From: Plantactinospora sp. BC1
GTDB taxonomy: Bacteria > Actinomycetota > Actinomycetes > Mycobacteriales > Micromonosporaceae
Reading direction: 5' to 3'
Assembly (NCBI RefSeq): GCF_003030345.1
Contig: NZ_CP028158.1
Coordinates: forward strand, 2,108,001-2,172,000
Length of the DNA stretch: 64,000 nucleotides
The stretch's first letter is position 1; every line of letters starts with the position of its first letter. The notes beneath the pieces are model-generated. The model did not search any database and was not told the DNA's origin. It saw nothing but the letters and a program-made list of their open reading frames with translations. Positions 6,251 to 40,386 of this stretch are shown piece after piece. The position numbers and the translations under genes are program-made.

Positions 6251-6265
6251 TGCATACTGTAGTCA
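6251..6265 (+). promoter_or_regulatory. Oxalate-island operator, copy 1 (upstream of panE2)
   Basis: TGCATACTGTAGTCA. The left half TGCATAC is identical to that of the other copies; the right half is degenerate. It lies about 80 bp upstream of the panE2-like start. A further half-like GCATACGG follows at about 6273. Confidence 0.6.
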
Positions 6266-6344
6266 GCATAACGCATACGGGAAGGCACGCCGCTGCTGCG
6301 TCGCCTCGGCGCCGCGCGGACGTCGTACGAGAAGGGAGCAGCCC

Positions 6345-7346
6345 GTGCGAGTTGCAGTGCTCGGAGCCGGCGCCATCGGCGCGTACGTCGGTGCGTCCCT
6401 GTGCCGGGCCGGGGTGGATGTCCAACTGATCGCCCGCGGCGCACACCTGGCCGCGCTGCGGGCAGACGGGGTACGGGTGCACAGTCCCCGGGGAGACTTC
6501 GCGGCGCACCCGCACGCCACCGACGACCCGCGCGAGGTCGGGCCGGTGGACTATGTGTTCCTCGGCCTCAAGGCGCATTCCTACGCCTCGGCGGGGCCGC
6601 TGCTGGAACCGCTGCTCGGCCCGGAGACCGCCCTGATCGCGGGGCAGAACGGCATCCCGTGGTGGTATTTCCACAAGCTACCGGGGCCGTACGAGGGCCA
6701 GCGGATCGAGGCCGTCGACCCGGGCGGGGCGACCTCGGCGGTGATGGCCCCGGAACGGGCGATCGGCTGTGTGGTCTACCCGGCCACGGTGATCGAGTCG
6801 CCCGGGGTGATCCGGCACCTGGAGGGGACCCGGTTCTCCATCGGGGAGCCGGACGGCACGATCTCGCAGCGGTGCCAGCGGTTCAGCGACGCGATGGTGG
6901 CCGGCGGGCTGAAGTGTCCGGTCGAGCCGCGACTGCGGGACGACATCTGGATCAAATTGATGGGCAACGTGTCGCTGAACCCGATCAGCGCACTGACCAG
7001 GGCGACCATGGCGGAGATCTGCGAGAGCCCGGGCACCCGCCGGGTGGTCGAGCAGATGATGGCCGAGACGCTCGACATCGCCAACCGGGTCGGCAGCACG
7101 CCGGAGATCTCGATCAGCAAGCGGGTCGAGGGCGCCCGGCGGGTCGGCCACCACAAGACCTCGATGTTGCAGGACCTCGAGGCGGGCAAGGAGATGGAAC
7201 TCGACGCGGTGGTCGCCGCCGTGGTCGAGATCGCCGACATCACCGGTGCGCCGGCACCCACGCTGCGCACCATCTACGCCGCGACCGAGCTGCTGGCCAA
7301 GACCATGGCCCGGCCGGCGCCGACCCCCAGCGTGACGGCGGCCTGA
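6345..7346 (+). CDS. panE2: Ketopantoate-reductase-family protein, probable oxalyl-CoA reductase (PanE2-like)
   Basis: A 333-residue NADPH-dependent reductase of the ketopantoate reductase fold. GTG 6345 is chosen for the AAGGGAG 6 nt upstream. The Rossmann motif GAGAIG is at residues 7-12; Lys204 (DDIWIKLMGN), Ser273 (HKTSMLQD) and Glu285 (GKEMELD) match the catalytic Lys, Ser and Glu of PanE with the same Ser-Glu spacing. A QNGIPWWYF segment marks a PanE subgroup. Pantothenate neighbours are absent; the gene lies upstream of glyoxylate carboligase in an oxalate island. In Methylobacterium extorquens the PanE2 paralogue reduces oxalyl-CoA to glyoxylate, which is exactly the step needed here. 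The fold is certain; the oxalyl-CoA role is inferred from context. Confidence 0.72.
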   Translation: MRVAVLGAGAIGAYVGASLCRAGVDVQLIARGAHLAALRADGVRVHSPRGDFAAHPHATDDPREVGPVDYVFLGLKAHSYASAGPLLEPLLGPETALIAGQNGIPWWYFHKLPGPYEGQRIEAVDPGGATSAVMAPERAIGCVVYPATVIESPGVIRHLEGTRFSIGEPDGTISQRCQRFSDAMVAGGLKCPVEPRLRDDIWIKLMGNVSLNPISALTRATMAEICESPGTRRVVEQMMAETLDIANRVGSTPEISISKRVEGARRVGHHKTSMLQDLEAGKEMELDAVVAAVVEIADITGAPAPTLRTIYAATELLAKTMARPAPTPSVTAA

Positions 7347-7348
7347 CG

Positions 7349-7373
7349 GGTACGCCACCAGCACCGGCGTACC
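7349..7373 (+). terminator. Hairpin between panE2 and gcl
   Basis: GGTACGCC at 7349-7356 pairs with GGCGTACC at 7366-7373 (8-bp stem, 9-nt loop), just after the panE2 stop. No T-run follows. It may terminate or attenuate panE2 transcription, which fits a separate operator in front of gcl. Confidence 0.4.
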
Positions 7374-7414
7374 GGCGAGGCGCCGGGCAGGTATTGCACT
7401 GAATCTGCCGACAG

Positions 7415-7427
7415 AATACTGTATGCA
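7415..7427 (+). promoter_or_regulatory. Oxalate-island operator, copy 2 (upstream of gcl)
   Basis: AATACTGTATGCA; reverse complement TGCATACAGTATT. Central ATAC-T-GTAT is a perfect palindrome. It lies about 150 bp upstream of the gcl start and after the panE2 hairpin, so gcl probably has its own promoter. Confidence 0.72.
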
Positions 7428-7577: not shown

Positions 7578-9302
7578 ATGGCCAAGATTCCCTGCATGGA
7601 CGCCGTCGTCTCGGTGCTCGCCTCGGAGGGCGTGGACATCGCCTTCGGCTGCCCCGGTGCCGCGATCCTGCCGCTCTACGCGGCGCTGCGGCGCAGCGAC
7701 ATCCGGCACCTGATCGTCCGGCACGAGGAGGGCGCCACCCACATGGCCGACGGCTGGGCCCGGACCAACGGCCGGGTCGGCGTCGCGATCGGCACCTCCG
7801 GCCCGGCCGGTACCAACATGATCACCGGTCTCTACACCGCACAGGCGGACTCCATCCCGATGGTCTGCATCACCGGCCAGGCGCCGACCGCCAAGCTGCA
7901 CCAGGAGGCGTTCCAGGCGGTCGACATCGTCGAGATCGCCAAGCCGGTGACGAAGTGGGCGGTGCAGGTCAAGGAGGCGGCCCAGGCACCCTGGATCTTC
8001 CGGGAGGCGTTCCGGGTCGCCCGCTCCGGGCGCCCCGGTCCGGTACTGATCGACCTGCCGATCGACGTGGCACGGCAGGAGATCGAGTGGGACGCCTCGA
8101 TCGACGCCCCGCTGCCGGTGACCCGGGTCGAGCCCCACCTGCCCCGGGTGGAGCGGGCCCTGGACCTGCTGCTCGCCGCCGAGCGACCGCTGATCCTGGC
8201 CGGTGGCGGGGTGATCATCGGCGGGGCGAGCGACCTGCTCCGGGAGGTCGCCGAGACGCTGAACATCCCGGTCCAGGTCACCCTGATGGGCAAGGGCGCG
8301 ATCCCGGAGGACCACGACCTCTTCGCCGGGATGACCGGCATCCAGACCACCCAGCGGTGGGGCAACGCCTCCTTCCTGGAATCCGACCTGGTGCTGGCGC
8401 TCGGCGCCCGGTTCGGCGACCGGCACACCGGGGACCTGCCGACCTACCGGGGCGACCGGAAGTTCATCCACGTCGACATCGAACCGACCCAGCTCGGCAA
8501 GGTGTTCGGCCCGGACCTCGGGATCGTCTCGGACACCGGGGCGTTCCTCGCCGCGCTGCTCGACGCCGTACGGCGCCGGGGGGTGCGGCGGGACCGGGGC
8601 GAATGGGTCTCGACGGTCCGCAAGCTGCGCGAGACGCTGCGCCGCCGCGACGACTTCGATTCGGTACCGGTCAAGGCGCCCCGGGTCTTCAAGGAAATCA
8701 ACGAATTCTTCGGCCCGGACACCTACTTCGTCACGGCGATCGGTCTCTACCAGATCTGGTCCGGACAGTTCCAGCAGGTCTTCAAGCCCCGGCACTACCA
8801 GGTCTGCGGCCAGGCCGGCCCGCTGGGTTGGGAGATCCCGGCGGCGATCGGGGTGAAGTCCGCCCGGCCCGACGCCGAGGTGGTCGGGGTGGTCGGCGAC
8901 TATTCGTTCCAGTTCCTGGTCGAGGAGCTCGCGGTCGCCGCGCAGTACAACATCCCGTTCGTGTTGGTCATGCTGAACAACGAGTATCTCGGGCTGATCC
9001 GGCAGGCCGAGATCGGCTACGAGATGAACTACGAGGTGGACATCCACTACGACGAGTACGGCACGGACAACGTCAAAATCATGGAGGCGTACGGCTGCGC
9101 CGGCCGCCGGGTACTGCGGCCCGACGAGATCGCCGACGCCCTCGCCTGGGCCAGCAAGGAGGCCCGGCGGACCAGCCGTCCGGTGCTGGTCGAGGTGATG
9201 ATCGAGCGGGAGGCGAACACCGCGCACGGGCTCTCCATCGCCCAGGTCAACGAGTTCGAGCCGGTACCGGAGGTCGAGTACCGGGACGCGGTCTCGGGCT
9301 GA
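7578..9302 (+). CDS. gcl: Glyoxylate carboligase (tartronate-semialdehyde synthase), Glu-type active site
   Basis: A 574-residue thiamine-diphosphate enzyme condensing two glyoxylates to tartronate semialdehyde and CO2. It follows E. coli Gcl closely along its length: TSGPAGTNMITGLYTAQADSIP, QAVDIVEIAKPV, DLGIVSD, CGQAGPLGWEIPAA, and the ThDP motif GDYSFQFLVEELAV...LNN. One residue stands out: in E. coli Gcl Val51 (RHVEGA) replaces the usual ThDP-activating Glu, whereas this protein has Glu50 at that place (RHEEGA). A GGAGG precedes the start. Together with GlxR, Hyi and glycerate kinase it forms the glycerate pathway. An acetolactate-synthase-like activity is the alternative, but the overall match and neighbours favour Gcl. 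Confidence 0.85.
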   Translation: MAKIPCMDAVVSVLASEGVDIAFGCPGAAILPLYAALRRSDIRHLIVRHEEGATHMADGWARTNGRVGVAIGTSGPAGTNMITGLYTAQADSIPMVCITGQAPTAKLHQEAFQAVDIVEIAKPVTKWAVQVKEAAQAPWIFREAFRVARSGRPGPVLIDLPIDVARQEIEWDASIDAPLPVTRVEPHLPRVERALDLLLAAERPLILAGGGVIIGGASDLLREVAETLNIPVQVTLMGKGAIPEDHDLFAGMTGIQTTQRWGNASFLESDLVLALGARFGDRHTGDLPTYRGDRKFIHVDIEPTQLGKVFGPDLGIVSDTGAFLAALLDAVRRRGVRRDRGEWVSTVRKLRETLRRRDDFDSVPVKAPRVFKEINEFFGPDTYFVTAIGLYQIWSGQFQQVFKPRHYQVCGQAGPLGWEIPAAIGVKSARPDAEVVGVVGDYSFQFLVEELAVAAQYNIPFVLVMLNNEYLGLIRQAEIGYEMNYEVDIHYDEYGTDNVKIMEAYGCAGRRVLRPDEIADALAWASKEARRTSRPVLVEVMIEREANTAHGLSIAQVNEFEPVPEVEYRDAVSG

Positions 9303-9458
9303 GCCGGCCCGGTGGCCCCCGGGTTCGGGGCCCGTGGCGGAGCGAGCGCGTCCCGGCCTGCGGTCGGGGCGCGCTTGTCGTCAGGACGGCCGTCGCCGAG
9401 GCACCAAATGGAATCGTTCCCGATCAATGCTCCTTGCCGACCGAAAAGTGCATCTGGA

Positions 9459-9473
9459 CTACTGTATGCTATA
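9459..9473 (+). promoter_or_regulatory. Oxalate-island operator, copy 3 (upstream of gntR)
   Basis: Core CTACTGTATGCTA; reverse complement AGCATACAGTAGTCC. It lies about 55 bp upstream of the GntR start, which is the expected position for autoregulation. Confidence 0.65.
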
Positions 9474-9525: not shown

Positions 9526-10287
9526 ATGACCGAATGGGGCGGCTCGGCCTCACCCGCCGGCGGCAGTGGTGGTCGACGACGGCTCGCCTCGGCCCGTCGC
9601 GAGCCACGGGCCGTCCGGCAGCCCCTGGAGCGGCCCGCGCCGCTGCGCCAGGCGGTCTACGACGTCATCGCCGAGATGATCATCAACCGTGAGCTGCGCC
9701 CCGGCGAGCACCTGGTCGAGAACGAACTCGCGGCCCAGCTCGGCGTCAGCCGGCAACCGGTCCGGGAGGCGCTGCAACGGTTGCAGAGCGAGGGATGGGT
9801 GGACCTGCGCCCGGCGCTCGGCGCGTTCGTGCACGTGCCGACCGAGGAGGAGGCCGACCAGCTCCTCGCCACCCGTACCCTGCTGGAGTCCGAGTCGGCC
9901 CGGCTGGCGGCCCGACAGGCAACGCCGGAGCAGATCGAGCGGCTGCGCGAGTTGCAGGCCGCCGGGGAGAAGGCGTTGCAGGACGACGACCAGGTGGAGC
10001 TGGTCGACGCGAACGCGGCCCTGCACGCGTACGTGGTGGAGATGTCCGGCAACAAGGTCCTCGCCGAGCTGATCGCGATGGTCGACCGGCGGGTGCGGTG
10101 GTATTACTCCCCGATCGCCCGCTCCCGGGGCCGGGAGGCCTGGGACGAGCACGCCGAGTTGATCGAGGTGATCGCCAGCCGCAACGGCCGACGGGCCGGC
10201 GAGCTGATGCGCAAGCACACCGAGCGCACCCGGGAGAGCTACCACCAGCGCCGCAAGGAGGCCGCCGAACGGGAAGCGCTGGGCTGA
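9526..10287 (+). CDS. GntR-family regulator, FCD subfamily (candidate oxalate regulon regulator)
   Basis: A 253-residue regulator. After a ~35-residue basic tail comes a winged helix (about 39-102) with the GntR signature LRPGEHLVENELAAQLGVSRQPVREALQRLQSEGWV. The C-terminal helical FCD domain (about 115-245) carries the acidic/His metal or ligand residues of the group (HAYVVEMSGN, HAELIEVI, KHTER). FadR/FCD regulators usually bind small carboxylates, so oxalate, glyoxylate or an oxalyl-CoA-related ligand is plausible. It is the only GntR protein in the window, and the palindrome before its own gene recurs before seven other island promoters. Whether it represses or activates cannot be told. 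GGAGG lies 6-7 nt before ATG. Confidence 0.88.
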   Translation: MTEWGGSASPAGGSGGRRRLASARREPRAVRQPLERPAPLRQAVYDVIAEMIINRELRPGEHLVENELAAQLGVSRQPVREALQRLQSEGWVDLRPALGAFVHVPTEEEADQLLATRTLLESESARLAARQATPEQIERLRELQAAGEKALQDDDQVELVDANAALHAYVVEMSGNKVLAELIAMVDRRVRWYYSPIARSRGREAWDEHAELIEVIASRNGRRAGELMRKHTERTRESYHQRRKEAAEREALG

Positions 10288-10413: not shown

Positions 10414-11775
10414 TCACAGCCGGATGGATTTCTTGTTCATGAACTCCTCGATGCCGGCCGCGCCGAGTTCCCGACCCATCCCGGAGCGCTTGATCCCGCC
10501 GAACGGCAGGTCGGCCTGCGACCCACCGGCGCTGTTCAGATACACCATGCCGGACTCGATCTGGCCGGCAACCCGGCGCAACCGCTCGGGATCCGTGCCC
10601 CAGACGCTGGCGCCGAGCCCGAACGGCGAGTCGTTCGCGATCGCGACCGCCTCCTCCTCGGTCTCCGCCCGGAAGACCAGCACCACCGGACCGAAGATCT
10701 CCTCGTAGTAGGCGTCCATCTCGCGGGTCACGTCGGTGAGCACGGTGGCTTCGAGATAGGCGCCGGGCCGGTCGAGCCGACGTCCACCGGTACGCAGCGT
10801 CGCCCCCTGCCGGACGGCCTTCTCCACCTGACCGGCCACCTCGTCGGCGGCGGCGACCGAGGCCAGCGGCGGCAGCTTCGTCGCGGGATCACCGGGGTCG
10901 CCCGGTACGAAGGTCTCGGCCACGTGCGCGGTCAGCCGCTCGACGAACTCCTCGTAGATGTCGGCGAGCACGATCATCCGCTTCGGCGAGTTGCACGACT
11001 GGCCGCAGTTGCGCATCCGGGCGGTCGCGGTGGCCCGCACCGTCTGCTCCATGTCGTCGGTGTCCAGCAGGATCAGCGGGTCGGAGCCGCCCAGCTCCAG
11101 GACGACCCGCTTCAGGTTCTTTCCGGCCTCGGCCGCGACCGAGATGCCCGCCCGCTCGCTGCCGGTCAGCGAGACCCCCTGGATGCGGGGGTCCGCGAGT
11201 ATCCGGGGGACCTGCGAGCTGGACGCGAAGATGTTCACGTACACGTCCTCGGGCACTCCGGCGTCGTGCAGGATCCGCTCGATCGCGACTGCCGACCGGG
11301 GGCAGATCGAGGCGTGCTTCAGCAGGATCGTGTTGCCGAGGACCAGGTTCGGCGCCGCGAACCTGGCGATCTGATAGCAGGGGAAGTTCCACGGCATGAC
11401 GCCGAGCAGCGGCCCGATCGGGTTCTTGGTGATGACTGCCCTGCCGCCCCTGATCTCCAGCGGCTCGTCGGCCAGCAGCGCGGGACCGTTGTCGGCGTAG
11501 TACCGGAAGATGTCGACGACGACGCCGATCTCACCGCGCCCCTCGTTGATCCGCTTGCCCATCTCCAGCGTCATCGTCTCCGCCAGCTCGTCGGCGCGCT
11601 CGGCGAACAGGTCCGCCGCCCGGGACACGATGCCGGCCCGCTCGGCGACCGGCCGACGCCGCCACGACTGGTACCCGTGGTGGACGCGCTCGATCGCCGC
11701 ACGGACCTCCGCCTCGGTCGCGTTCTCGATCTTCTCGATCAGTTCACCCGTCGCCGGGTCGGTAACTGTGTACAT
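10414..11775 (-). CDS. NAD(P)-dependent aldehyde dehydrogenase (succinate-semialdehyde dehydrogenase type)
   Basis: A 453-residue aldehyde dehydrogenase. The catalytic Cys261 lies in NCGQSCNSPKR and the general base Glu227 in VLELGGSDPL; MPWNFPCYQIAR and EIFGPV are the family's other landmarks. Length and the NEGRGEI/ITKNPIGPLLGV segments resemble the Sad/YneI succinate-semialdehyde dehydrogenase branch. No island operator is obvious upstream, but the gene sits between gntR and oxc. It might oxidise succinate semialdehyde, glycolaldehyde, glyoxal or tartronate semialdehyde, or act on glyoxylate; the sequence does not decide. GGAGG lies 11 nt before ATG. Confidence 0.88.
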   Translation of the reverse strand: MYTVTDPATGELIEKIENATEAEVRAAIERVHHGYQSWRRRPVAERAGIVSRAADLFAERADELAETMTLEMGKRINEGRGEIGVVVDIFRYYADNGPALLADEPLEIRGGRAVITKNPIGPLLGVMPWNFPCYQIARFAAPNLVLGNTILLKHASICPRSAVAIERILHDAGVPEDVYVNIFASSSQVPRILADPRIQGVSLTGSERAGISVAAEAGKNLKRVVLELGGSDPLILLDTDDMEQTVRATATARMRNCGQSCNSPKRMIVLADIYEEFVERLTAHVAETFVPGDPGDPATKLPPLASVAAADEVAGQVEKAVRQGATLRTGGRRLDRPGAYLEATVLTDVTREMDAYYEEIFGPVVLVFRAETEEEAVAIANDSPFGLGASVWGTDPERLRRVAGQIESGMVYLNSAGGSQADLPFGGIKRSGMGRELGAAGIEEFMNKKSIRL

Positions 11776-12273: not shown

Positions 12274-14007
12274 TCACCGCTGTACCGTGATGCCCTTCGG
12301 GTTGAGGTGCGCGATGTTGCCGCTCTCGGTTCCGTCGGTGGGGTCGATGACGCAGTCGATGAGCGCGGGCTTGCCCAGGGCCAGGGCCTCGCGCAGGGCG
12401 GCGGTGACCTCCGCCGGTGTCGTCGCCCGGTAGCCCTTCCCGCCGAACGCGGCGATCATGAGGTCGTGCCGGGCCCGCAGGGCGGTCGGTGCCGGATCCT
12501 CGGAGGTCGACCCCTCGTCGCCACGGTAGACCCCGCTGTTGTTCAGCACGATCGTGACCACGGGCAGCCCGTAGCGGCAGATCGTCTCCAGCTCCATGCC
12601 GCTGAACCCGAACGCGCTGTCGCCCTCGATGGCGACGACCGGGTCTCCGCTCTCGACCGCGGCGGCGATCGCGTACCCCATGCCGATGCCCATCACGCCC
12701 CAGGTGCCGCTGTCCAGCCGGTGTCGCGGCACCTGCATGCCGATCGTGTTGCGGGCCAGGTCGAGCGCGTTCGCGCCCTCGTTGACGACGTACGTCTGCG
12801 GGTTCTCCCGCAGGACGTCGCGGATGGCCTGCAGGGCGCCGAGGAACTTCATCGGGTGTGCCGTCTCGGCGGCCTTGAGGCGCTTGGCCATCTTGCCGAC
12901 GTTCTCCGCGGAGCGGGCCGAAAGCTCGTCCCGCCACTGGGTCGGTACGGCGATCTGGCCCGGCTTGGTCCGGTCGATCAGGGCCTGCAGCACCGAGCCG
13001 ACGTCACCGACGAGCGGCGCCGCGATCGGCTGGTTGCTGTCCAGCTCGGTGCTGGCGATGTCGACCTGGATGAACTTGGCGTCGGGGTTCCACTGCGGTG
13101 CGTCGCCGTGCCCGAGCAGCCAGTTCAGGCGCGCACCGACCAGCAGCACGACGTCGGCCCGGCGTAGCGCCAGCGACCTGGTGCTGGCCACCGACTGTGG
13201 GTGGTCGTCGGGCAGCAGGCCCTTCGCCATCGACATGGGCAGGTAGGGCACGCCGGTCAGCTCGACGAACTGGCGGATCTCCTCGTCCGCCTGCGCGTAC
13301 GCCGCGCCCTTGCCGAGCACGACGAGCGGCCGTTCGGCGCCCGCGAGCAGTTCGATCGCGCGGTCCAGGGCGGCGGGTTCGGGCATCTGCCGCGGTGCCG
13401 GGTCGACGACCCGCCACAGCGACGCGGCGCCCAGATCGGCATCGATGACCTCGCCGAGGACCGCGGCCGGGATGTCGAGGTAGACCCCGCCCGGTCGGCC
13501 GGAGACGGCGGTGCGGATCGCCCGGGCCACGCCTCGGCCGATGTCCTCGGCCCGGTGCACCCGGTAGGCCGCCTTGGCAAACTGTCGGGCCGCCGCGAGC
13601 TGGTCCATCTCCTCGTAGTCGCCCCGTTGCAGGTCGACGAGGTGCCGCTCGCTGGAGCCGGAGATCTGCACCATCGGGAAGCAGTTCACGGTGGCGTTGG
13701 CCAGCGCCACCAGCCCGTTGAGGAAGCCCGGAGCGGAGACCGTCAGGCAGATTCCCGGCTTCTTCGTCAGGAACCCGGCCGCCGCCGCGGCGTGCCCGGC
13801 AGCGCTCTCGTGCCGGAAGCCGATGAAACGGATGCCGGACGCCTGCGCCAGGCGGGCCAGGTCGGTGATCGGGATGCCGACGACGCCGTAGATGGCGTCG
13901 ACCTCGTTGAGCTTGAGCGCGTCGACGACCAGATGGATCCCGTCGGTGAGTTTCTTCGCACTTACCAGGCCGCCGGCTTCTGACTCCCGAAGGGAAGCGA
14001 TGGTCAT
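12274..14007 (-). CDS. oxc: Oxalyl-CoA decarboxylase
   Basis: A 577-residue thiamine-diphosphate enzyme converting oxalyl-CoA to formyl-CoA and CO2. Glu67 (GFRHESAAGH) is the ThDP-activating Glu. The segment GSSERHLVDLQRGDYEEMDQ carries Tyr131-Glu132, equivalent to Tyr120-Glu121 of the Oxalobacter formigenes enzyme. The cofactor motif is GDSAFGFSGMELETICRYGLP...LNN and the C-terminus carries the family's NLNPK-like end. GGAGG is 9 nt before ATG. The promoter contains operator copy 4 inside a block duplicated in front of frc. Frc supplies its substrate; formyl-CoA returns to Frc as CoA donor. A downstream hairpin suggests a monocistronic transcript. Assignment is secure. Confidence 0.95.
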   Translation of the reverse strand: MTIASLRESEAGGLVSAKKLTDGIHLVVDALKLNEVDAIYGVVGIPITDLARLAQASGIRFIGFRHESAAGHAAAAAGFLTKKPGICLTVSAPGFLNGLVALANATVNCFPMVQISGSSERHLVDLQRGDYEEMDQLAAARQFAKAAYRVHRAEDIGRGVARAIRTAVSGRPGGVYLDIPAAVLGEVIDADLGAASLWRVVDPAPRQMPEPAALDRAIELLAGAERPLVVLGKGAAYAQADEEIRQFVELTGVPYLPMSMAKGLLPDDHPQSVASTRSLALRRADVVLLVGARLNWLLGHGDAPQWNPDAKFIQVDIASTELDSNQPIAAPLVGDVGSVLQALIDRTKPGQIAVPTQWRDELSARSAENVGKMAKRLKAAETAHPMKFLGALQAIRDVLRENPQTYVVNEGANALDLARNTIGMQVPRHRLDSGTWGVMGIGMGYAIAAAVESGDPVVAIEGDSAFGFSGMELETICRYGLPVVTIVLNNSGVYRGDEGSTSEDPAPTALRARHDLMIAAFGGKGYRATTPAEVTAALREALALGKPALIDCVIDPTDGTESGNIAHLNPKGITVQR

Positions 14008-14074: not shown

Positions 14075-14152
14075 TGCATACCGTATGGGGTAGGCAATAA
14101 TCGTGGACCATGTGACAGCGGGGTGTCTAGGGGGTGGCAGAGACGTTTTCCG
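14075..14152 (-). repeat. Duplicated promoter block, oxc copy
   Basis: This 78-bp stretch recurs at 21846-21921 upstream of frc with only a handful of substitutions and two 1-bp gaps. It holds the operator CATACCGTATG at its gene-proximal end and a shared ACAGCGGGGTGTCTAGGGGG segment further upstream. Conservation across non-coding DNA implies a recent duplication or strong selection on a shared regulatory unit. Confidence 0.9.
14077..14087 (-). promoter_or_regulatory. Oxalate-island operator, copy 4 (upstream of oxc)
   Basis: CATACCGTATG, a perfect palindrome around a central base; wider form TGCATACCGTATGGG. It lies 70 bp upstream of the oxc ATG. Confidence 0.8.
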
Positions 14153-14859: not shown

Positions 14860-15885
14860 TCAGACCGCGTCCCGGTCCGCCGTCACGGTGTCGCGGGTAG
14901 CGGGGGTTTCGGCCCCCGCTCCCTCCGTGGCGGCGGACTGTCGTTCCGCCCCGTCCCGCCGGGACTTCGCCAGGCTCGCCACGGTGGTGACCAGCAGCGT
15001 GCCGACGATGACCCCGAGCGAGACGGCGATCGGCACCGACGGCGCCCAGGAGACCCCGTCGTGGTGCGCCGCCTCCAGCACGAGCTTGACGCCGATGAAG
15101 GCCAGGATGAACGCCAGGCCCTTGCTGAGGTACACCAGCCGGTCGAGCAGGCCACCGAGCAGGAAGTAGAGCTGCCGCAGGCCCATCAGCGCGAACGTGT
15201 TCGCGGTGAAGACCAGGTACGGCTCCTGGGTCAGTCCGAAGATCGCCGGAATCGAGTCGAGCGCGAACAGCAGGTCGGTGGTACCGATGGCGATCATGAC
15301 GATCAGCATCGGAGTCACCATCGTCCGACCGTTCAGCCGGACGAAGACCGACGCACCCCGGTACGACTCCGTGGTCGGCAGGATCCGCTTCGCCGTACGG
15401 AGGGCGACGTTCTCGGAGAACTCGTCCTCCTGCTGCGGAGCGACCAGCTTGACCGCGGTGTAGATCAGGAACGCGCCGAAGAGGTAGAAGAGCCAGTCGA
15501 ACCGGGCGACCGCCTGCGCGCCCGCCGCGATGAAGATGCCCCGCATCAGCAGCGCCAGCACGATGCCGATCAGCAGCACCTTCTGCCGATACTGGACCGG
15601 CACCGCGAACCGGCTCATGATGATGATGAAGACGAAGAGGTTGTCGACACTGAGCGAGTACTCGGTGAGCCAGCCGGCGAAGAACTGTCCTCCGTAGCTG
15701 ACCCCCGCCGTCCCCATCACCGCGAACCCGAAGGCGATGGCGGCCAGCACGTAGAAGCTCACCCAGGCGACGCACTCCCGGAAGGCCGGCTCGCGCGGGT
15801 TGCGGGCGACCAGGTAGAAGTCGAAGGCGATCATCACCAGGAAGCCGACGATCGTCACGGCCCATACCCAGACCGGCAGGTTCAT
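14860..15885 (-). CDS. TerC-family integral membrane protein
   Basis: A 341-residue membrane protein with about nine helices. The TerC landmarks are WLTEYSLSVDNLFVFIII and TTDLLFALDSIPAIFG, whose Asp residues line the presumed metal site, plus LRQLYFLLGGLLDRL. The C-terminus is a hydrophilic Ala/Glu/Arg tail. TerC proteins include tellurite-resistance components and, in Bacillus and E. coli relatives, manganese exporters. Its start overlaps the preceding gene's stop (ATGA), placing it last in a run from frc through the acyl-CoA ligase and Nramp-like gene. A role in handling metal released from metal oxalates is a reasonable guess only. Confidence 0.88.
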   Translation of the reverse strand: MNLPVWVWAVTIVGFLVMIAFDFYLVARNPREPAFRECVAWVSFYVLAAIAFGFAVMGTAGVSYGGQFFAGWLTEYSLSVDNLFVFIIIMSRFAVPVQYRQKVLLIGIVLALLMRGIFIAAGAQAVARFDWLFYLFGAFLIYTAVKLVAPQQEDEFSENVALRTAKRILPTTESYRGASVFVRLNGRTMVTPMLIVMIAIGTTDLLFALDSIPAIFGLTQEPYLVFTANTFALMGLRQLYFLLGGLLDRLVYLSKGLAFILAFIGVKLVLEAAHHDGVSWAPSVPIAVSLGVIVGTLLVTTVASLAKSRRDGAERQSAATEGAGAETPATRDTVTADRDAV

Positions 15886-16460
15886 AGTTCTCCCTTTGCT
15901 CGGAACAGGGCCGGTCGGCCGTTACCCCGACCGGCGGCCCGGGCCCGCCGACGGCTCTCCCGGGCCTTCCACTGCGCCTCGGCGTGCCGCAGGTAGAAGG
16001 CGTACAGCCGGTCGGCGGCCGGGTTGCGGTGCCGGATCCGGCGCAGCCAGCCCGGTGCGATCCGCTCGTGCAGCCAACTGAACCCGATCGCGAAGCCGAG
16101 GCTGACGATCGCCTGGTAGGCCAGGAAGCCGGGCAGGTCCGGCGGCAGCGCCGGCCGGCCGACGACCATCAGGCCGACCAGCATCTCGTGGGTCACCCGG
16201 GCGACCGGGAAGCCGATGAACCAGTAGAGCGCCGCCGGGGCGAAGACGCCCGGTGAGGCGATGCCGGTGGCCAGCAGCAGCCCGAAGCCGCCGCCGAGCA
16301 GCACCAGCGGCAGGCCGAGCCCCACGCCGGTGGCCAGGGCCCAGCCGACCGGTTGGCCGGCGAGCAGCGCGAGCCCGGCGGCCGCCACCCCGGCGGTCGC
16401 CCCGATGCCGGCTCCCGGCAGGGCGAGCTCACCGAGGTGGCGTACTTTGTCGCCGGTCAT
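15882..16460 (-). CDS. Predicted membrane protein of unknown function (192 aa)
   Basis: Start ATG 16460 is preferred over an upstream GTG because GAGAGG lies directly before it. Three to four hydrophobic segments: GAGIGATAGVAAAGLALLAG, ALATGVGLGLPLVLLGGGFGLLL, a third around GVFAPAALYWFIGFPVARV, and a C-terminal one at YQAIVSLGFAIGFSWL, followed by a strongly basic tail (KARESRRRARAAGRG). I do not recognise the family. It lies 40 bp after the Nramp-like gene and overlaps terC, so a shared transport or metal-related function is likely. Confidence 0.7.
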   Translation of the reverse strand: MTGDKVRHLGELALPGAGIGATAGVAAAGLALLAGQPVGWALATGVGLGLPLVLLGGGFGLLLATGIASPGVFAPAALYWFIGFPVARVTHEMLVGLMVVGRPALPPDLPGFLAYQAIVSLGFAIGFSWLHERIAPGWLRRIRHRNPAADRLYAFYLRHAEAQWKARESRRRARAAGRGNGRPALFRAKGEL

Positions 16461-16500
16461 GTCCTCTCCCCGTTCTGTCCGGTCACAGCGCTTCGCCGGC

Positions 16501-26731: not shown

Positions 26732-26754
26732 CTGGTGCCTCCAACTGGCCACTG

Positions 26755-29966: not shown

Positions 29967-29978
29967 CGGCGTGCCTGG

Positions 29979-30863: not shown

Positions 30864-30864
30864 C

Positions 30865-31716
30865 TCAGCGATCCCCTTCGTTGGTCTGGTCGGCACCGCC
30901 GCCCCGGCGCTGCCGGGGCAGCCAGCCGAAGCTCTCCGCGCTCGCCCCGCTGGGCAGGTATTCCAGGCCGACCCAGCCTCGGTAGCCGGACCGGCCGAGT
31001 TGGTCGAGGTGGCCGTCGAGGTCGATCTCGCCGCTCCCCGGCTCGTGCCGGCCGGGTGCGTCGGCGATCTGCACGTGCCCGATCCGGTCGGCGTGCTCGG
31101 CGAGCACCTTCGGCACGTCGTCGCCGTTCACGGTGAGGTGGTAGAGGTCGGCGAGGAGGGCCAGGTTGCGGATGTCGCGTTCGACCAGCAACTGGTCGAG
31201 TACGGCGACCACGTCGGCGGCGGTACGCAGCGGGTAGGGCTGGGGGCCGCTGACCGCCTCGACGAGTACGGTGCCGCCGATCCGGGCGACCGCCGAGGCG
31301 GCGAAGGCGAGGTTGGCCACCGCCGTCTCCTCCTGCACGGTCGGGTGCAGGTCGGCGATCCGGTTGCCGTAGAGGGCGTTGAACGACCGGCAGCCGGTGG
31401 CGGCGCCGATCATCGCGACCAGTTCGACGTTCTCCCGGAACTCGGCGGAGCGCGCCGGCCAGGAGACCACTCCCCGGTCGCCGCCGGGCATGTCGCCGGC
31501 GAAGAAGTTGAGCCCCACCAGTTGGACGTCGGCGTCGTCGATGGCGGCGAGGAACGCCTCCACCTCGGAGGCCCGGGGCACCGGTTCGGCGAACGGCCAC
31601 CAGAACTCGACGGCGTCGAATCCGGCCGCCTTCGCCGCCGCCGGCCGCTCCAGCAGCGGCAGCTCGGTGAAGAGGATCGAGCAGTTCACGTCGTAGCGGA
31701 GCTGGTGTCCGGGCAC
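30865..31716 (-). CDS. hyi: Hydroxypyruvate isomerase
   Basis: A 283-residue TIM-barrel isomerase interconverting hydroxypyruvate and tartronate semialdehyde. GTG 31716 is chosen for the GGAGGG just upstream. RYDVNCSILFTELPLLERPAAAKAAGFDAVEFWWPF, GLNFFAGDMPGGDRG and HVQIADAPGRHEPGSGEIDL are Hyi signatures; the Glu, Asp, His and Glu metal ligands are in place. First gene of the glycerate operon, directly downstream of operator copy 7. Ends with a basic, Gly-rich tail of about 20 residues. Confidence 0.93.
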   Translation of the reverse strand: MPGHQLRYDVNCSILFTELPLLERPAAAKAAGFDAVEFWWPFAEPVPRASEVEAFLAAIDDADVQLVGLNFFAGDMPGGDRGVVSWPARSAEFRENVELVAMIGAATGCRSFNALYGNRIADLHPTVQEETAVANLAFAASAVARIGGTVLVEAVSGPQPYPLRTAADVVAVLDQLLVERDIRNLALLADLYHLTVNGDDVPKVLAEHADRIGHVQIADAPGRHEPGSGEIDLDGHLDQLGRSGYRGWVGLEYLPSGASAESFGWLPRQRRGGGADQTNEGDR

Positions 31717-31757
31717 GGGCCCTCCTGCGGCTCGGCGACTACTGCTATTACCTACAG

Positions 31758-31770
31758 GATTCTGTATGCA
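31758..31770 (-). promoter_or_regulatory. Oxalate-island operator, copy 7 (upstream of hyi-glxR-glycerate kinase)
   Basis: GATTCTGTATGCA; reverse complement TGCATACAGAATC. The left half TGCATAC is exact, the right half has one mismatch. It is 43 bp upstream of hyi. Confidence 0.7.
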
Positions 31771-31772
31771 GT

Positions 31773-31789
31773 ATGGAGAAGAGTCAAGG
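31773..31789 (+). repeat. Direct repeat flanking the NB-ARC gene, left copy
   Basis: ATGGAGAAGAGTCAAGG here and ATGGAGAGGAGTCAAGG at 34934-34950 differ at one base of 17. They bracket the DUF4062/NB-ARC gene with its leader, so they may be insertion scars or attachment-like sites. No integrase or transposase lies between them. Confidence 0.5.
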
Positions 31790-35457: not shown

Positions 35458-38271
35458 TCAGTCCGCCATCGCCGGAAGCCGGGTCTCCGCCACGGTCGCC
35501 CCGGCCGGTGCCGGCGGATTCTTCAAACCGACCTGCACTGCCGTCACCTTGTATTCGGGACAGTTGGTCGCCCAGTCGGAGTTCTCCGTGGTGACCACGT
35601 TCGCCCCGGTGACCGGGTGGTGGAAGGTCGTGTAGACCACGCCGACCGGCATCCGGTCGGAGAGGACCGCGCGCAGCGAGGTGGCGCCGACCCGGCTGGC
35701 CAGGGTGACCTCGTCGCCGTCGTTGATGCCCCGGACCTCCGCGTCGTGCGGATGGATCTCGAGTACGTCCTCCGGGTGCCACTCCACGTTGCTGGTCCGC
35801 CGGGTCTGCGCCCCCACGTTGTACTGGCTGAGGATCCGGCCGGTGGTCAGGATCAGCGGGAACTTGCGGGTACTCCGCTCCCGGGTCGGCACGAACGGGG
35901 TCTGCACGAACCGCCCCCGGCCCCGGACGAAGCCCTCCATGTGCATGATCGGGGTACCCTCCGGCGCGCTGTCGTTGCAGGGCCACTGCACGCTGCCCAG
36001 CTTGTCGAGCTTGTCGAAGGAGACCCCGGCGAAGGTCGGGGTGAGCGCGGCGATCTCGTCCATGATCTGGCTCGGGTGGTCGTACCGCATCGGGTAGCCC
36101 ATCGCCTGGGCGATCTCGGCGACGATCTCCCACTCGTGCTTGCCGGTCTTCGGCGGCATCACCGGGCGTACCCGGTTGATCCGGCGCTCGGCGTTGGTGA
36201 AGGTGCCGTCCTTCTCCAGGAAGGAGGTGCCGGGCAGGAAGACGTGGGCGAACTTCGCCGTCTCGTTGAGGAACAGGTCCTGCACCACGACCAGCTCCAG
36301 CGCCGCCAGCGCGGCGTGCACGTGCTTGATGTTCGGGTCGGACTGGGCGATGTCCTCGCCCTGCACGAAGAGCGCCCGGAAACTGCCGTCCAGCGCCGCG
36401 TCGAACATGTTCGGGATCCGCAGCCCCGGCTCGGCCAGCAGCTCGCGCCCCCACATGTTCTCGAAGACCCCGCGTACGACGTCGTCGGAGATGTGCCGGT
36501 AGCCGGGCAGCTCGTGCGGGAACGACCCCATGTCGCAGGAGCCCTGCACGTTGTTCTGCCCGCGCAGCGGGTTGACCCCGACGCCGTCCCGGCCGATGTT
36601 GCCGGTCGCCATCGCCAGGTTCGCCATCCCCATCACCATGGTCGAACCCTGGCTGTGCTCGGTGACACCGAGGCCGTAGTAGATCGCCGCGTTGCCGCCG
36701 GTCGCGTAGAGCCGGGCCGCCGCCCGCAGCTCCTCGGCCGGTACCCCGGTGAGCTCCTCGACCGCCTCCGGGCTGTTCTCCGGCCGGGCGATGAACTCGG
36801 CCCAGCCGTCGAAGTCCTCGCAGCGCTCCTCGACGAAGCTCCGGTCGACCAACCCCTCGGTGAGCACCACGTGCGCCATCGCGTTCACCACCGCCACGTT
36901 GGTGCCGGGGGCAAGCTGGAGGTGGTGCGCCGCCTCGACGTGCGGCGAGCGGACCAGGTCGATCCGGCGCGGGTCGACGACGATCACCTTGGCGCCCTCG
37001 CGGATCCGGCGCTTCATCCGGGAGGCGAAGACCGGGTGCGCGTCGGTCGGGTTCGCGCCGATCACCATGATCACGTCGGACTTGGCCACCGAGCGGAAGT
37101 CCTGGGTACCGGCGGAGGTGCCGAAGGTCTGCTTCAGGCCGTACCCGGTCGGCGAGTGGCAGACCCGGGCGCAGGTGTCCACGTTGTTGTTGCCGAACGC
37201 GGCCCGGATCATCTTCTGCACCACGTAGACCTCCTCGTTGGTGGTACGCGAGGAGGTGATGCCGCCGATCGAGCCGACCCCGTGCCGGGCCTGGATGTCC
37301 TTCAGCTTGGCGGCGGTGTAGGAGATCACCGTCTCCCAGTCGACCGGGCGCCACTCGTCGGTGATGCTCTCCCGGAGCATCGGGGTGAGCACCCGGTCCG
37401 GGTGGGTGGCGTAGCCGAACGCGAAGCGGCCCTTGACGCAGGAGTGCCCCTCGTTCGCCCCGCCGTCCTTGTGCGGCACCATCCGGACCAGCTCGGCGCC
37501 GCGCAGCTCGGCCTTGAACGAGCAGCCGACCCCGCAGTAGGCACAGGTGGTGACGACGCTGCGGGTCGGCATGCCGAGCTGCACCACCGTCTTCTCCTGA
37601 AGGGTGGCGGTCGGGCAGGCCTGCACGCAGGCGCCGCAGGAGACGCATTCGGAACTCATGAAGTCGGTGCCGCCGGCCGACACCTTGGAGCCGAAGCCAC
37701 GCCCCTCGATGGTCAGCGCGAACGTCCCCTGCACCTCGCCGCAGGCCCGTACGCAGCGGGAGCAGGCGATGCACTTGGACGCCTCGAAGTCGAAGTACGG
37801 GTTGCTGGAGTCGGTCTTCTCGTCGAGGTGGTTGGCGCCGTCGTAGCCGTACCGGACCTGGCGCAGCCCGACCACACCGGACATGTCCTGCAACTCGCAG
37901 TCGCCGTTGGCCGAGCAGGTGAGGCAGTCCAGCGGGTGGTCGGAGATGTAGAGCTCCATCACGCCCTGGCGGAGCTTCTCCAGCTTCGGCGACTGGGTGG
38001 TCACCTTCATGCCCTCGGTGACCGGGGTGGTGCAGGACGCCGGGGTGCCGCGCCGGCCGTCGATCTCCACCAGGCAGAGCCGGCAGGAGCCGAACGCCTC
38101 CAGGCTGTCGGTGGCGCAGAGTTTCGGGATGTCGATCCCGCTCAGTGCCGCCGCCCGCATCACCGAGGTGCCCTCGGGGACCGCGACGGGGTGCCCGTCC
38201 ACCTCGACGGTGACGGTCGCCGGGCCGGGCCTGGCCGGGGTACCGAGGTCGGGTTCCTTCAACAGGCTCAC
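35458..38271 (-). CDS. fdsA: NAD-dependent formate dehydrogenase alpha subunit (Mo-bisMGD, Fe-S)
   Basis: A 937-residue catalytic subunit oxidising formate to CO2. The N-terminus has a 2Fe-2S plant-type domain (CRLCLVEIDGR), a His/Cys cluster (SDHPLDCLTC), two 4Fe-4S ferredoxin sites (CIACSRCVRACGEVQG and CVSCGACVQACPTATL) and the molybdopterin-domain cluster CAYCGVGC. Cys371-His372 in CARVCHSPTG are the metal-ligand Cys and catalytic His, so it is a cysteine, not selenocysteine, enzyme. Molybdopterin-binding domains fill the rest to VTLASRVGATSLRA. GTG start overlaps the fdsB stop. FdhD and MoeA in the island serve its cofactor. Confidence 0.95.
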   Translation of the reverse strand: MSLLKEPDLGTPARPGPATVTVEVDGHPVAVPEGTSVMRAAALSGIDIPKLCATDSLEAFGSCRLCLVEIDGRRGTPASCTTPVTEGMKVTTQSPKLEKLRQGVMELYISDHPLDCLTCSANGDCELQDMSGVVGLRQVRYGYDGANHLDEKTDSSNPYFDFEASKCIACSRCVRACGEVQGTFALTIEGRGFGSKVSAGGTDFMSSECVSCGACVQACPTATLQEKTVVQLGMPTRSVVTTCAYCGVGCSFKAELRGAELVRMVPHKDGGANEGHSCVKGRFAFGYATHPDRVLTPMLRESITDEWRPVDWETVISYTAAKLKDIQARHGVGSIGGITSSRTTNEEVYVVQKMIRAAFGNNNVDTCARVCHSPTGYGLKQTFGTSAGTQDFRSVAKSDVIMVIGANPTDAHPVFASRMKRRIREGAKVIVVDPRRIDLVRSPHVEAAHHLQLAPGTNVAVVNAMAHVVLTEGLVDRSFVEERCEDFDGWAEFIARPENSPEAVEELTGVPAEELRAAARLYATGGNAAIYYGLGVTEHSQGSTMVMGMANLAMATGNIGRDGVGVNPLRGQNNVQGSCDMGSFPHELPGYRHISDDVVRGVFENMWGRELLAEPGLRIPNMFDAALDGSFRALFVQGEDIAQSDPNIKHVHAALAALELVVVQDLFLNETAKFAHVFLPGTSFLEKDGTFTNAERRINRVRPVMPPKTGKHEWEIVAEIAQAMGYPMRYDHPSQIMDEIAALTPTFAGVSFDKLDKLGSVQWPCNDSAPEGTPIMHMEGFVRGRGRFVQTPFVPTRERSTRKFPLILTTGRILSQYNVGAQTRRTSNVEWHPEDVLEIHPHDAEVRGINDGDEVTLASRVGATSLRAVLSDRMPVGVVYTTFHHPVTGANVVTTENSDWATNCPEYKVTAVQVGLKNPPAPAGATVAETRLPAMAD

Positions 38272-39848
38272 GGTGTGGCCTCCTCGTATCGGCCGGCGGA
38301 CGGCTCCCCGCGAACGGTGAAGTCGTCCGGGAAGTGCAGCAGTGCGCTGCGTACCGGCATCGGTGTCAGGCCGCCCATCGCGCAGAGCGACCCCTCGGTC
38401 ATCAGCTCGCAGAGATCACCCAGCAGGGCCAGGTTGCCGTCCGGGTCCTGACCGGCGGTGATCTTGTCGATCACCTCGACGCCCCGGACCGCTCCCACCC
38501 GGCAGGGGGTGCACTTGCCGCAGGACTCCTCGGCGCAGAACTCCATGGCGAATCTCGCCATCGCCGCCATATCGACGGTGTCGTCGAAGACCACGATGCC
38601 ACCGTGGCCGAGCATCGCGCCGGCGGCGGCGAAGGCCTCGTACTCCATCGGCAGGTCCAGGCCGGTCGCCGGCAGGTACGCCCCGAGCGGGCCGCCGACC
38701 TGGACCGCCCGGACCGGCCGGCCGGTGCGGGTGCCGCCGCCGTAGGTGTGGATCAGCTCGCCGAGCGTCATCCCGAAGGCGGTCTCGAAGATCCCGCCCC
38801 GGGCGACGTTGCCGGCGAGTTGGAAGACCTGGGTGCCCCGGGACCGCTCCATCCCGAGCGCCTGGTACGCCGCCGCCCCGTCGGCGAGGATCGTCGGCAC
38901 CGAGGCCAGGGTCAGCACGTTGTTCACCACGGTCGGCCTGCCGAAGAGGCCGGTGATCGCCGGGATCGGCGGCTTGGCCCGGACCATGCCGCGCTTGCCC
39001 TCCAGGCTCTCCAGCATCGCGGTCTCCTCGCCGCAGATGTAGGCGCCCGCGCCGACCCGGACGTGCAGGTCGAAGCGGAGCCCGGAGCCGAGGACGTCGC
39101 CGCCGAGCCAGCCCTGCTCCCGGGCCACCGCGATCGCCTGGCGCATCGTCCGGACCGCGTCCGGATATTCGGAGCGGATGTAGACGTAGCCCTCGGTGGC
39201 ACCGACCGCGTGCGCGGCGATGGTCATCCCCTCGATCAGGGTGAAGGGGTCGCCCTCCATCAGCATCCGGTCGGCGAAGGTGCCGCTGTCGCCCTCGTCG
39301 GCGTTGCAGCAGACGAACTTCAGCGCGCCGGGGGTGTCCAGCACGGTCTTCCACTTGATCCCGGCGGGGAAGCCGGCGCCGCCCCGGCCGCGCAGTCCGG
39401 AGCCGGTGACCTCGGCGACCACCTCGGCCGGGGTGAGTTCGAGGGCGCGACGCAGTCCGGCCAGGCCGCCGTGTGCGAGGTAGTCGTCCGGGGAGAGCGG
39501 GTCGGTGACGCCGACCCGGGCGAAGCAGAGCCGGGTCTGGTCGCGCAGCCAGGGCAGTTCGGCGACGACGCCCTGGCAGAGTTCGTGGTCGGCACCGTCG
39601 AGCAGCCCGGCGGCGACCAGGTCGGCGACCGCCTCCGGCGCGACCGGCCCGTACCCGATCCGGCCGCGCTCGGTGACCACCTCGACCAGCGGTTCCAGCC
39701 AGAGCATGCCGTGCGAGCCGTTGCGGACCAGCCGGACCGGCCGGCCGGCCTCGGCGGCGGCTCGCTCGATCTCGGCGGCGACCAGGTCGGCGCCGACCGA
39801 GAGCGCCGCCGAGTCGCGGGGTACGTAGACCGTCACCGGGGCCGTCAT
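38268..39848 (-). CDS. fdsB: Formate dehydrogenase beta subunit (NADH/FMN, NuoF-like)
   Basis: A 526-residue flavoprotein passing electrons from FdsA to NAD+. An N-terminal thioredoxin-like part precedes the NuoF core: SGLRGRGGAGFPAGIKW (NAD-binding Gly-rich), NADEGDSGTFADR (FMN), GAGAYICGEETAMLESLEGKRGMVRAKPP, and the C-terminal 4Fe-4S ligands ESCGKCTPCRVG with a later Cys in GSLCAMGG. ATG 39848 overlaps the fdsG stop. The operon order G-B-A-D is that of Fds enzymes of Cupriavidus and Rhodobacter (there fdsC is also present; no FdsC here, FdhD is separate). Confidence 0.95.
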   Translation of the reverse strand: MTAPVTVYVPRDSAALSVGADLVAAEIERAAAEAGRPVRLVRNGSHGMLWLEPLVEVVTERGRIGYGPVAPEAVADLVAAGLLDGADHELCQGVVAELPWLRDQTRLCFARVGVTDPLSPDDYLAHGGLAGLRRALELTPAEVVAEVTGSGLRGRGGAGFPAGIKWKTVLDTPGALKFVCCNADEGDSGTFADRMLMEGDPFTLIEGMTIAAHAVGATEGYVYIRSEYPDAVRTMRQAIAVAREQGWLGGDVLGSGLRFDLHVRVGAGAYICGEETAMLESLEGKRGMVRAKPPIPAITGLFGRPTVVNNVLTLASVPTILADGAAAYQALGMERSRGTQVFQLAGNVARGGIFETAFGMTLGELIHTYGGGTRTGRPVRAVQVGGPLGAYLPATGLDLPMEYEAFAAAGAMLGHGGIVVFDDTVDMAAMARFAMEFCAEESCGKCTPCRVGAVRGVEVIDKITAGQDPDGNLALLGDLCELMTEGSLCAMGGLTPMPVRSALLHFPDDFTVRGEPSAGRYEEATP

Positions 39849-40321
39849 GCGTCCACCGCCTTCGTCACCAGGGCGTCCAGCCGGGCGGGGGTGAGCCGCC
39901 CGTGCACCCGTTCGTCGATCTGACCGGCCGGGCCGAGCGCGCAGTTGCCCAGGCAGAACACCTGCTCCAGGGTGACCGAACCGTCCGATGTGGTCTGTCC
40001 TACCTTGACGCCCAGGGTCCGCTCCGCGTACGCGACGAGCTGCTCGGCGCCGACCGACTGGCAGGCCTCGGCCCGGCAGAGCTTGACCACCGTCCGCCCG
40101 GCGGGCTCGGCCCGGAAGTCGGTGTAGAAGGTGATCACGCCGTGCACGTCGGCACGGGAGATGTTCAGCTCGCTGGCCAGCACCGGCACGACGTCGGAGT
40201 CGACGTAGCCGAACTCGGCCTGGATCCGGTGCAGGATCGGCAACAGCGCACCGCGGTCACCACGATGCGCCGCGACCAGCGCGCGCACCCGATCCGTCAC
40301 CGAGGGGTCCGGACTGGCCAC
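39845..40321 (-). CDS. fdsG: Formate dehydrogenase gamma subunit (NuoE-like 2Fe-2S)
   Basis: A 158-residue thioredoxin-like 2Fe-2S protein with cluster ligands in LCRAEACQS and FCLGNCALGP and the ILHRIQAEFGYVDSDVVPVLASEL opening of NuoE-type subunits. GTG 40321 is preferred because GGAGGTGG lies upstream at proper distance and the length then matches FdsG; the frame could be extended upstream into the operator by a TTG, which is unlikely. First gene of fdsGBAD, 54 bp downstream of operator copy 8. Confidence 0.92.
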   Translation of the reverse strand: MASPDPSVTDRVRALVAAHRGDRGALLPILHRIQAEFGYVDSDVVPVLASELNISRADVHGVITFYTDFRAEPAGRTVVKLCRAEACQSVGAEQLVAYAERTLGVKVGQTTSDGSVTLEQVFCLGNCALGPAGQIDERVHGRLTPARLDALVTKAVDA

Positions 40322-40374
40322 GGGGATCCCACCTCCACTCGCGCCTACTGGACCTCCACCATACGTCGCCTTGG

Positions 40375-40386
40375 ATACCGTATGCA
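40375..40386 (-). promoter_or_regulatory. Oxalate-island operator, copy 8 (upstream of fdsGBAD)
   Basis: ATACCGTATGCA; reverse complement TGCATACGGTATCCA in wider form, with a perfect ATAC-C-GTAT core. It ties formate oxidation to the oxalate genes. Confidence 0.78.

Follow-up and report, generated by a model that had tools for sequence, protein, structure and literature searches.

A 64,000-nucleotide stretch of the Plantactinospora sp. BC1 genome (contig NZ_CP028158.1, positions 2,108,001 to 2,172,000; hereafter the window) holds a 34 kb island of genes for oxalate, glyoxylate and formate metabolism, in which eight copies of a palindrome centred on ATAC-N-GTAT lie upstream of genes and a GntR-family protein of the FCD type is encoded (9526-10287). 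We propose that the eight sites are operators of this protein, which would control the island as one regulon, most likely as a repressor, and that each operator is a ladder of short binding units; taken together, we consider this reading probable. On sequence grounds the FCD-type GntR protein is very probably the regulator of the island. A sequence-only reading of the window had already suggested a regulon within the island and the internally encoded FCD-type protein as its likely regulator, and this suggestion is supported by the confinement of the sites, by their conservation in relatives and by a comparison of genomes that started from oxc.

All eight sites were confirmed in the window, with start positions 6251, 7413, 9456, 14075, 21846, 26753, 31756 and 40372, which lie 0-3 bp from those first reported. 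The 15-mer TGCATACNGTATNCA with up to three mismatches gave 19 strand-wise matches in the window (71% G+C), compared with a mean of 2.46 and a maximum of 10 in shuffled sequence, and none of 100 shuffles reached 19. On their better strand the eight sites carry 0-3 mismatches to the 15-mer, and the weakest of them scores 16.6 with a matrix built from the eight. Two further matches in the window, at 14237 and 61882, have three mismatches and occur on a single strand. Measured from the edge of the site to the start codon as read in this analysis, the distances are 79 bp for panE, 150 for gcl, 55 for gntR, 67 for oxc, 121 for frc, 21 for the MFS transporter gene, 66 for the DUF6457 gene, 39 for hyi and 50 for fdsG, so that the 25-150 bp given by the sequence-only reading was about right (21-150 bp), and 266 bp for sucC.

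The putative operators on the left of the island precede panE (6251..6265, + strand, TGCATACTGTAGTCA), gcl (7413..7427, + strand, AGAATACTGTATGCA, with a flanking unit TGCCGACA at 7406) and, as a weak site, gntR (9456..9470, + strand, GGACTACTGTATGCT). The candidate before oxc (14075..14096, − strand) comprises the 15-mer at 14075-14089 and an adjoining unit GGTAGGCA at 14089-14096, and the same 22 bp recur in the candidate between frc (−) and sucC (+) at 21846..21867 (− strand). Further putative operators lie between the MFS transporter gene (−) and DUF6457-moeA (+) (26753..26767, + strand), before hyi-glxR-glxK, where a multi-unit arrangement reads TACCTAC-AGGATTC-T-GTATGCA-GTATGGA (31749..31777, − strand) and the site is double (31756 and 31763), and before fdsG-fdsB-fdhA (40372..40386, − strand). 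In the promoter context as read by eye, the gntR site falls between TGCATC and TATAAC and the hyi site between TTGACT and CAGAAT, and the oxc and frc sites come after a conserved upstream block with a TAGACA/TGGACA-like word. A sigma-70 scan of 5800-9600 returned a single match, 6231-6258, which the panE site overlaps. A block of about 60 bp that includes both the operator and the TAGACA/TGGACA-like word is common to the upstream regions of oxc (14075-14137) and frc (21846-21907), and it recurs in most Micromonosporaceae islands.

Confinement of the motif within the 8.33 Mb genome, a single contig, was judged by pattern searches and by matrix scoring of selected places. The exact core ATACNGTAT occurs at five places, all of them inside the island. 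With at most one mismatch CATACNGTATG occurs at 11 places, five in the island, and ACNGTATGC occurs at 29, six in the island; none of the remaining 23 reaches a matrix score of 15. Places that match the 15-mer with no or one mismatch are confined to the island and those with two mismatches are found outside as well, the best-scoring off-island place among those scored reaching 14.6, below the weakest of the eight sites. The sequence-only reading had held that a motif frequent throughout the genome would speak against it, and no such frequency was seen in the pattern searches. As far as these searches reach, the results support one regulon, confined to the island.

For conservation, 200 family genomes were searched with the GntR protein; scoring of the best 13 candidates per genome gave a clear orthologue in 16 other genomes (E ≤ 1.4e-77; the next group stands at 1.4e-40). 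Islands of up to 60 kb around each orthologue were annotated with the window proteins only, and placement was counted up to 400 bp before the matched start, overlapping sites being counted apart. The 17 islands contain 111 sites scoring at least 15, none of which is within a gene matched by a window protein; in the 16 relatives 102 such sites compare with none in the reversed sequences. Sites of this strength precede panE, frc and sucC in 16 of 16 islands each (sucC often through the site shared with frc), oxc in 8/8, the DUF6457 gene in 4/4, the MFS gene in 15/16, moeA in 12/13 and fdsG in 10/11, as well as glxR in 3/16 and the aldehyde dehydrogenase gene in 1/7. Before gntR, a score of at least 10 is reached in 18 of 18 copies and one of at least 15 in four. 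No site of at least 15 was observed before the inner genes terC, hyp16k and nramp (0/14 islands each), acd and sucD (0/16 each), glxK (0/6) or fdhA and fdsB (0/11 each), nor before fdhD in 12 islands, two of which have a site of at least 10. In two islands (G024 and G129) the gene order is rearranged, yet sites precede most of the same genes. A wider search for loci with orthologues of the GntR protein, of which the best 80 of 365 were taken, extended to Lentzea, Amycolatopsis, Kibdelosporangium, mycobacteria, Streptomyces and others besides Micromonosporaceae; 71 of the 80 loci hold a site of at least 15, and the 164 sites in total compare with one in the reversed sequences. This set shares at least nine genomes with the set of 16 relatives.

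The link between the regulator gene and the sites was also followed in searches that began with oxc. In the 200 family genomes (the BC1 genome included, best six candidates scored) oxc was found in eight, all of which have the GntR orthologue; in the wider class it was found in 14 of 394 genomes (best three candidates scored). In G299 and G405 an orthologue is present and strong sites lie within the clusters. Nine genomes from one other family have oxc and, with every candidate scored, lack an orthologue at E ≤ 1e-50. In none of them did we observe a site of at least 15 in 4.6 kb around oxc; one of the nine has a site scoring 13.8. G389, a candidate for oxc without gntR, was dropped from the negatives on account of a gntR fragment, masked bases and strong sites beside oxc. 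G438 was excluded as well, with 108 of its 111 candidates scored; its 46 kb contig has no site of at least 15, the best being 14.4. At E ≤ 1e-200, gcl was detected in none of the 26 gntR-negative family genomes, a weak result from a search run without a positive control.

The 9526-10287 protein itself belongs to the GntR family, FCD (FadR) subfamily, with matches to PF00392 (73.2 bits) and PF07729 (95.4 bits) that are both above cut-off. Its Pfam GntR domain begins at residue 41, so that about 40 residues precede it, and in an alignment of 18 copies the SRQPVREA recognition helix and three histidines are invariant. A role of the FCD histidines as a metal site is described in PMC6608401. The best NCBIfam match is to the PhnR-type regulators (TIGR03338; 111 bits, cut-off 271.5) and the second best to PRK03837, the NanR family (94.2 of 260 bits), and the protein is a member of neither.

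Among known systems, Atu1419 of Agrobacterium fabrum, a GntR protein of the FCD/VanR type solved with DNA, recognizes the operator ATGTATACAT and contacts the G at its position 3 (PMC7797058). That G is as far from the dyad as the G in TGYATRCA, the 8-bp unit that we propose below. Like the island protein, Atu1419 combines a GntR winged helix-turn-helix with an FCD domain, its palindrome has the GT-AT-AC spacing of the proposed unit, and its sites lie at −10 or between −35 and −10 (PMC7797058). It differs in that a tetramer binds separate 10-bp palindromes and the genes concerned are those for hydroxycinnamate; its structure (6z74) gives only 40.9 bits to the island protein. NanR of Escherichia coli, also an FCD-type GntR protein, places three dimers side by side on the short repeats (GGTATA)3, with cooperativity mediated by a 32-residue N-terminal extension (PMC8012715), to be compared with the roughly 40 residues before the GntR domain here, but its repeats are direct and it serves sialic acid genes. 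HypR of Streptomyces coelicolor is an actinomycete FCD GntR repressor with a small regulon and weaker autorepression, although its motif, CTNTGC(A/C)ATGTCAC, and its hydroxyproline genes are different (PMC6608401). In Pseudomonas putida KT2440, deletion of the gene for the GntR-family protein GclR activates gcl, hyi, glxR, ttuD and pyruvate kinase (reviewed in PMC11166783). GclR, compared by description only, shares the family name and the glyoxylate branch with the island protein; its context is ethylene glycol and glyoxylate, and oxalate and formate genes are not mentioned for it in the excerpts of PMC11166783 on which this comparison draws.

The sites of the FadR subfamily have been described as TKGT / ACMA, with GT before AC, 2-3 nt apart (PMC4494728). 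The centre ATAC-N-GTAT has the order AC-N-GT, the reverse of this geometry, and in this respect the sequence-only reading, which took the central pattern itself as one that suits FadR/FCD-type proteins, was not borne out in the form given. The 15-mer is better read as two overlapping 8-bp units, TGYATRCA, that resemble the FCD site TGTATACA and fit the TKGT / ACMA operator type in part, a reading that would restore the link to the FCD family. Column counts from 161 non-redundant sites show conservation beyond the 15-mer. Unit statistics were calculated from 79 sites with flanks less than 50% identical to one another, drawn from 70 of the 80 loci (L129-L135 and L137-L139 were left out, all of them except L132 being repeats of relatives already in the set). 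The 7 bp flanking the 15-mer on either side resemble the half-site GTATGCA (3.22 and 3.16 of 7 positions, compared with about 1.7 at other offsets, a difference of 11-12 of their standard deviations), and matches to TGYATRCA at the four in-phase positions average 3.78, 5.85, 7.22 and 3.47 of 8, compared with 2.35 (standard deviation 0.13) elsewhere. The two middle positions are high by selection, and the outer two constitute the test. Some out-of-phase positions within the 15-mer or next to it are elevated as well, for example 4.47 at start 12 and 3.39 at start −3; we attribute this to the motif being similar to itself. The middle units have one base in common (position 8), which is A or T in 84% of the sites versus 35% in the background. 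In 30 more distant FCD homologues, fetched from lower-scoring matches of the family GntR search, GTATAC occurs within 300 bp upstream in 18 (shuffle mean 0.7, largest 4), and only GGCGCC among the 64 six-base palindromes is present in more loci.

The units are palindromic, follow one another in 7-bp steps and are symmetric about the centre, rather than forming three direct repeats of the GGTATA type. By analogy, this suggests an operator of two or more overlapping units in a 7-bp ladder, on which neighbouring dimers may be arranged somewhat as in NanR. The sites, their confinement and conservation, their link to gntR and the 7-bp phase are computed results; from them we infer that the 9526-10287 protein binds the sites as cooperating dimers, that it represses and that a ligand releases it. 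Each operator would consist of two or more 8-bp TGYATRCA dimer sites that share one base at each 7-bp step, the ATAC-N-GTAT palindrome being the seam between two units. Dimers positioned on the promoters of the main transcription units, or immediately next to them, would repress these units and may leave the DNA when the FCD pocket binds a small pathway carboxylate, be it oxalate, glyoxylate, formate or a CoA ester. The weak site before gntR would give mild autoregulation. The positions of the sites at promoter elements fit repression, as for HypR, with weak self-repression. In its furthest form, which we put forward tentatively as a serious possibility, the proposal is of a master regulator for the metabolism of oxalate, glyoxylate and formate that would operate throughout the actinomycetes and has not been described before. 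It would recognize overlapping 8-bp palindromes that form a ladder with a 7-bp step; adjacent dimers would have one base pair in common and cooperate in binding around the helix, and operator strength would be set by the number and quality of the rungs, from one good rung (gntR) to about four (hyi).

Several observations weigh against the proposal of GntR-bound ladder operators. Promoter elements were read by eye, and since the islands were picked by the presence of gntR, its occurrence in them is no evidence; only the searches that started from oxc are free of this. A site of at least 15 precedes gcl in just 4 of 16 islands and hyi in 8 of 16, and seven of the 80 loci, five of them from Streptomyces, have no site of at least 13; in five of the seven a weaker site (10.1-10.6) lies within about 120 bp before gntR. 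The flanking units are weak, an adjacent unit of at least 6/8 being present at only 22 of the 79 sites, and these sites are not fully independent because promoters of one gene recur across genera. The 30 distant homologues represent few orthologue groups, stops occur in at least two of the matches, and further palindromes are frequent upstream as well (GGCGCC in 19/30, TCATGA in 14/30). Close to the genes of more distant FCD proteins, in G050 and G043 (39 and 34% identical), almost the same palindrome is found, which means that the motif is not private to the orthologue group, and the genome has at least 13 GntR matches, so that other GntR proteins could bind the sites.

The last two points would favour a different regulator, either encoded elsewhere or a paralogous FCD GntR protein, with the linked gntR being incidental. 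The XRE regulator encoded nearby (5009-5794) might also be named, but it is matched in just two of 17 islands, at differing places, and was rejected as the binder. Such a regulator would further have to be reconciled with the absence of sites of at least 15 near oxc in nine of nine genomes without the orthologue and with the site of at least 10 before every one of the 18 gntR copies, and we regard it as quite improbable. That the repeats are remnants of promoter duplication or of a mobile element, rather than operators, seems highly improbable: the block common to oxc and frc would agree with it, but this is the only pair that looks duplicated, the motif is kept at 79 sites whose flanks are diverged, and it is conserved across several orders.

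With the same regulon and regulator, a single dimer could instead occupy a 15-bp inverted repeat, TGCATAC-N-GTATGCA, each subunit reading a 7-bp half-site and the flanking half-sites being secondary. The operator has its axis of symmetry at the central N, and in the column counts the halves point outward on both sides, as such an arrangement would have it. We consider a single dimer rather unlikely in view of the AC-N-GT order, which reverses the GT-(2-3 nt)-AC of the FadR subfamily (PMC4494728), the GTATAC upstream of distant FCD homologues and the preference for A or T at the central N. The mismatch in GT/AC order, the scores of the outer units, the distant GTATAC and the precedents of Atu1419 and NanR are our reasons for favouring a ladder of dimer units rather than a single 15-bp palindrome. 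The sign of regulation is a separate matter, as position alone leaves it open and some FCD proteins activate, for example CitO (PMC6608401). An activator or a dual regulator nevertheless appears doubtful, given that the gntR and hyi sites lie between promoter words and the frc and oxc sites after a conserved block, that the FCD repressor HypR of Streptomyces also covers the −10 region (PMC6608401), and that loss of gclR turns on the gcl genes of P. putida (PMC11166783).

The genes that the putative repressor would control were named from NCBIfam and Pfam matches. The left part of the island encodes, on the + strand, a panE-like reductase (6345..7346; NF005089), glyoxylate carboligase (gcl, 7578..9302; NF008431 and TIGR01504, above cut-off) and the GntR-family regulator with its winged helix-turn-helix and FCD domains (9526..10287; Pfam GntR and FCD). 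On the − strand follow an aldehyde dehydrogenase (10414..11775; best match NF006915, below cut-off), which has no matrix match of at least 9 nearby in the window and hence no operator of its own, oxalyl-CoA decarboxylase (oxc, 12274..14007; TIGR03254, 982.8 bits, cut-off 739.4), a TerC/Alx-type membrane protein with a small unknown protein and an Nramp-type metal transporter (14860..17904; TIGR03718, NF037982), an ADP-forming acyl-CoA synthetase-like protein (18207..20372; Pfam domains, below NCBIfam cut-offs) and formyl-CoA transferase (frc, 20495..21724; TIGR03253, above cut-off). Further on are a sucC-sucD-like CoA ligase pair (22127..24186, +; NF001913 and NF004230, above cut-off), fdhD with an MFS transporter resembling oxalate/formate antiporters (24396..26731, −; NF001943, and TIGR00890 and MFS_1, the antiporter likeness below NCBIfam cut-offs), a DUF6457 protein with a MoeA-like protein (26834..28287, +; PF20058, and NF011068 below cut-off), and glycerate kinase (glxK), tartronate-semialdehyde reductase (glxR) and hyi (28791..31716, −; TIGR00045, TIGR01505 and TIGR03234, hyi below cut-off). 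The last unit, fdhA, fdsB and fdsG (35458..40321, −; fdsG by NF004638 above cut-off, fdsB NuoF-like below cut-off, fdhA by Pfam), encodes a probable NAD-linked molybdenum formate dehydrogenase. A DUF4062 / NB-ARC / TPR gene (31903-34917) stands between hyi and the formate dehydrogenase genes; it is divergent from hyi, so that the hyi operator region is common to both, and no match to it was found at the same place in the 16 relatives. In the presumed pathway, the panE-like reductase, a candidate oxalyl-CoA reductase PanE2, would lead with gcl, glxR/hyi and glxK to glyoxylate assimilation, and after oxalate uptake frc and oxc would presumably yield formate for the formate dehydrogenase.

In the relatives, some clusters depart from this arrangement. 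Eight of the 16 (G010, G068, G048, G091, G006, G098, G024 and G129) have no true oxc and carry instead a thiamine pyrophosphate enzyme 28-31% like gcl or oxc; in seven of the eight a site of at least 15 lies within about 420 bp upstream of its matched start, and the regulon is therefore independent of oxalyl-CoA decarboxylase. This enzyme may be another formyl-CoA-forming lyase. Clusters L140, L170, L175 and L181 and the G024 island, from mycobacteria and Virgisporangium, carry the GntR gene in duplicate (59-78% identical to the query). With at most one mismatch GCATACNGTATGC has 28 matches in G091, the highest number in the 200 genomes, and AGCATACGGTCCGCA occurs twice in the surroundings of the G091 island; together they are possibly a repeat family. 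As a genome-level marker of gntR, GCATACNGTATGC was rejected for its high background. Elsewhere in the FCD subfamily, the GntR genes of L050, L052, L112, L113 and L115-L119 share TTGTTCTTCGTATAC about 74-80 bp before the matched start, likely the operator of another regulon, and the FCD GntR genes L110:7449-8189 and L111:8098-8805 have TGCATACGGTATGCA or TGCATACAGTATCCG nearby. With functions read from translations, the former adjoins a peptide-transporter cluster and the latter a gamma-glutamyltransferase-like gene and ABC transporter genes.

Among the open-access papers covered by our searches we found no description of a GntR regulator of oxalate genes or of oxalate gene switching in actinomycetes. 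A term search of the main text of an oxalate-pathway paper (PMC12927642) returned neither 'regulator' nor 'GntR', and searches for GntR together with ATAC[N/A/T/C/G]GTAT strings yielded no such regulon as judged by title; one candidate for a published motif match, PMC4576408, is a LexA paper. The nearest precedents are a putative GntR regulator that usually adjoins the genes for 2-hydroxyisobutyryl-CoA (PMC7176365) and, in Pseudomonas, a GntR-family repressor of the glyoxylate branch (GclR, PMC11166783). We rate the proposed regulon as new within a regulator family that is already known, and its operator layout as possibly new. Actinomycetes that degrade oxalate convert this compound, made by plants and fungi, to carbon dioxide and biomass. 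With a candidate regulator, a delimited set of genes and eight target sites now in hand, the ligand, the sign of regulation and the operator become directly testable. If the ladder is true, it would show one way for FCD-type GntR proteins to assemble graded operators out of a single short palindrome.

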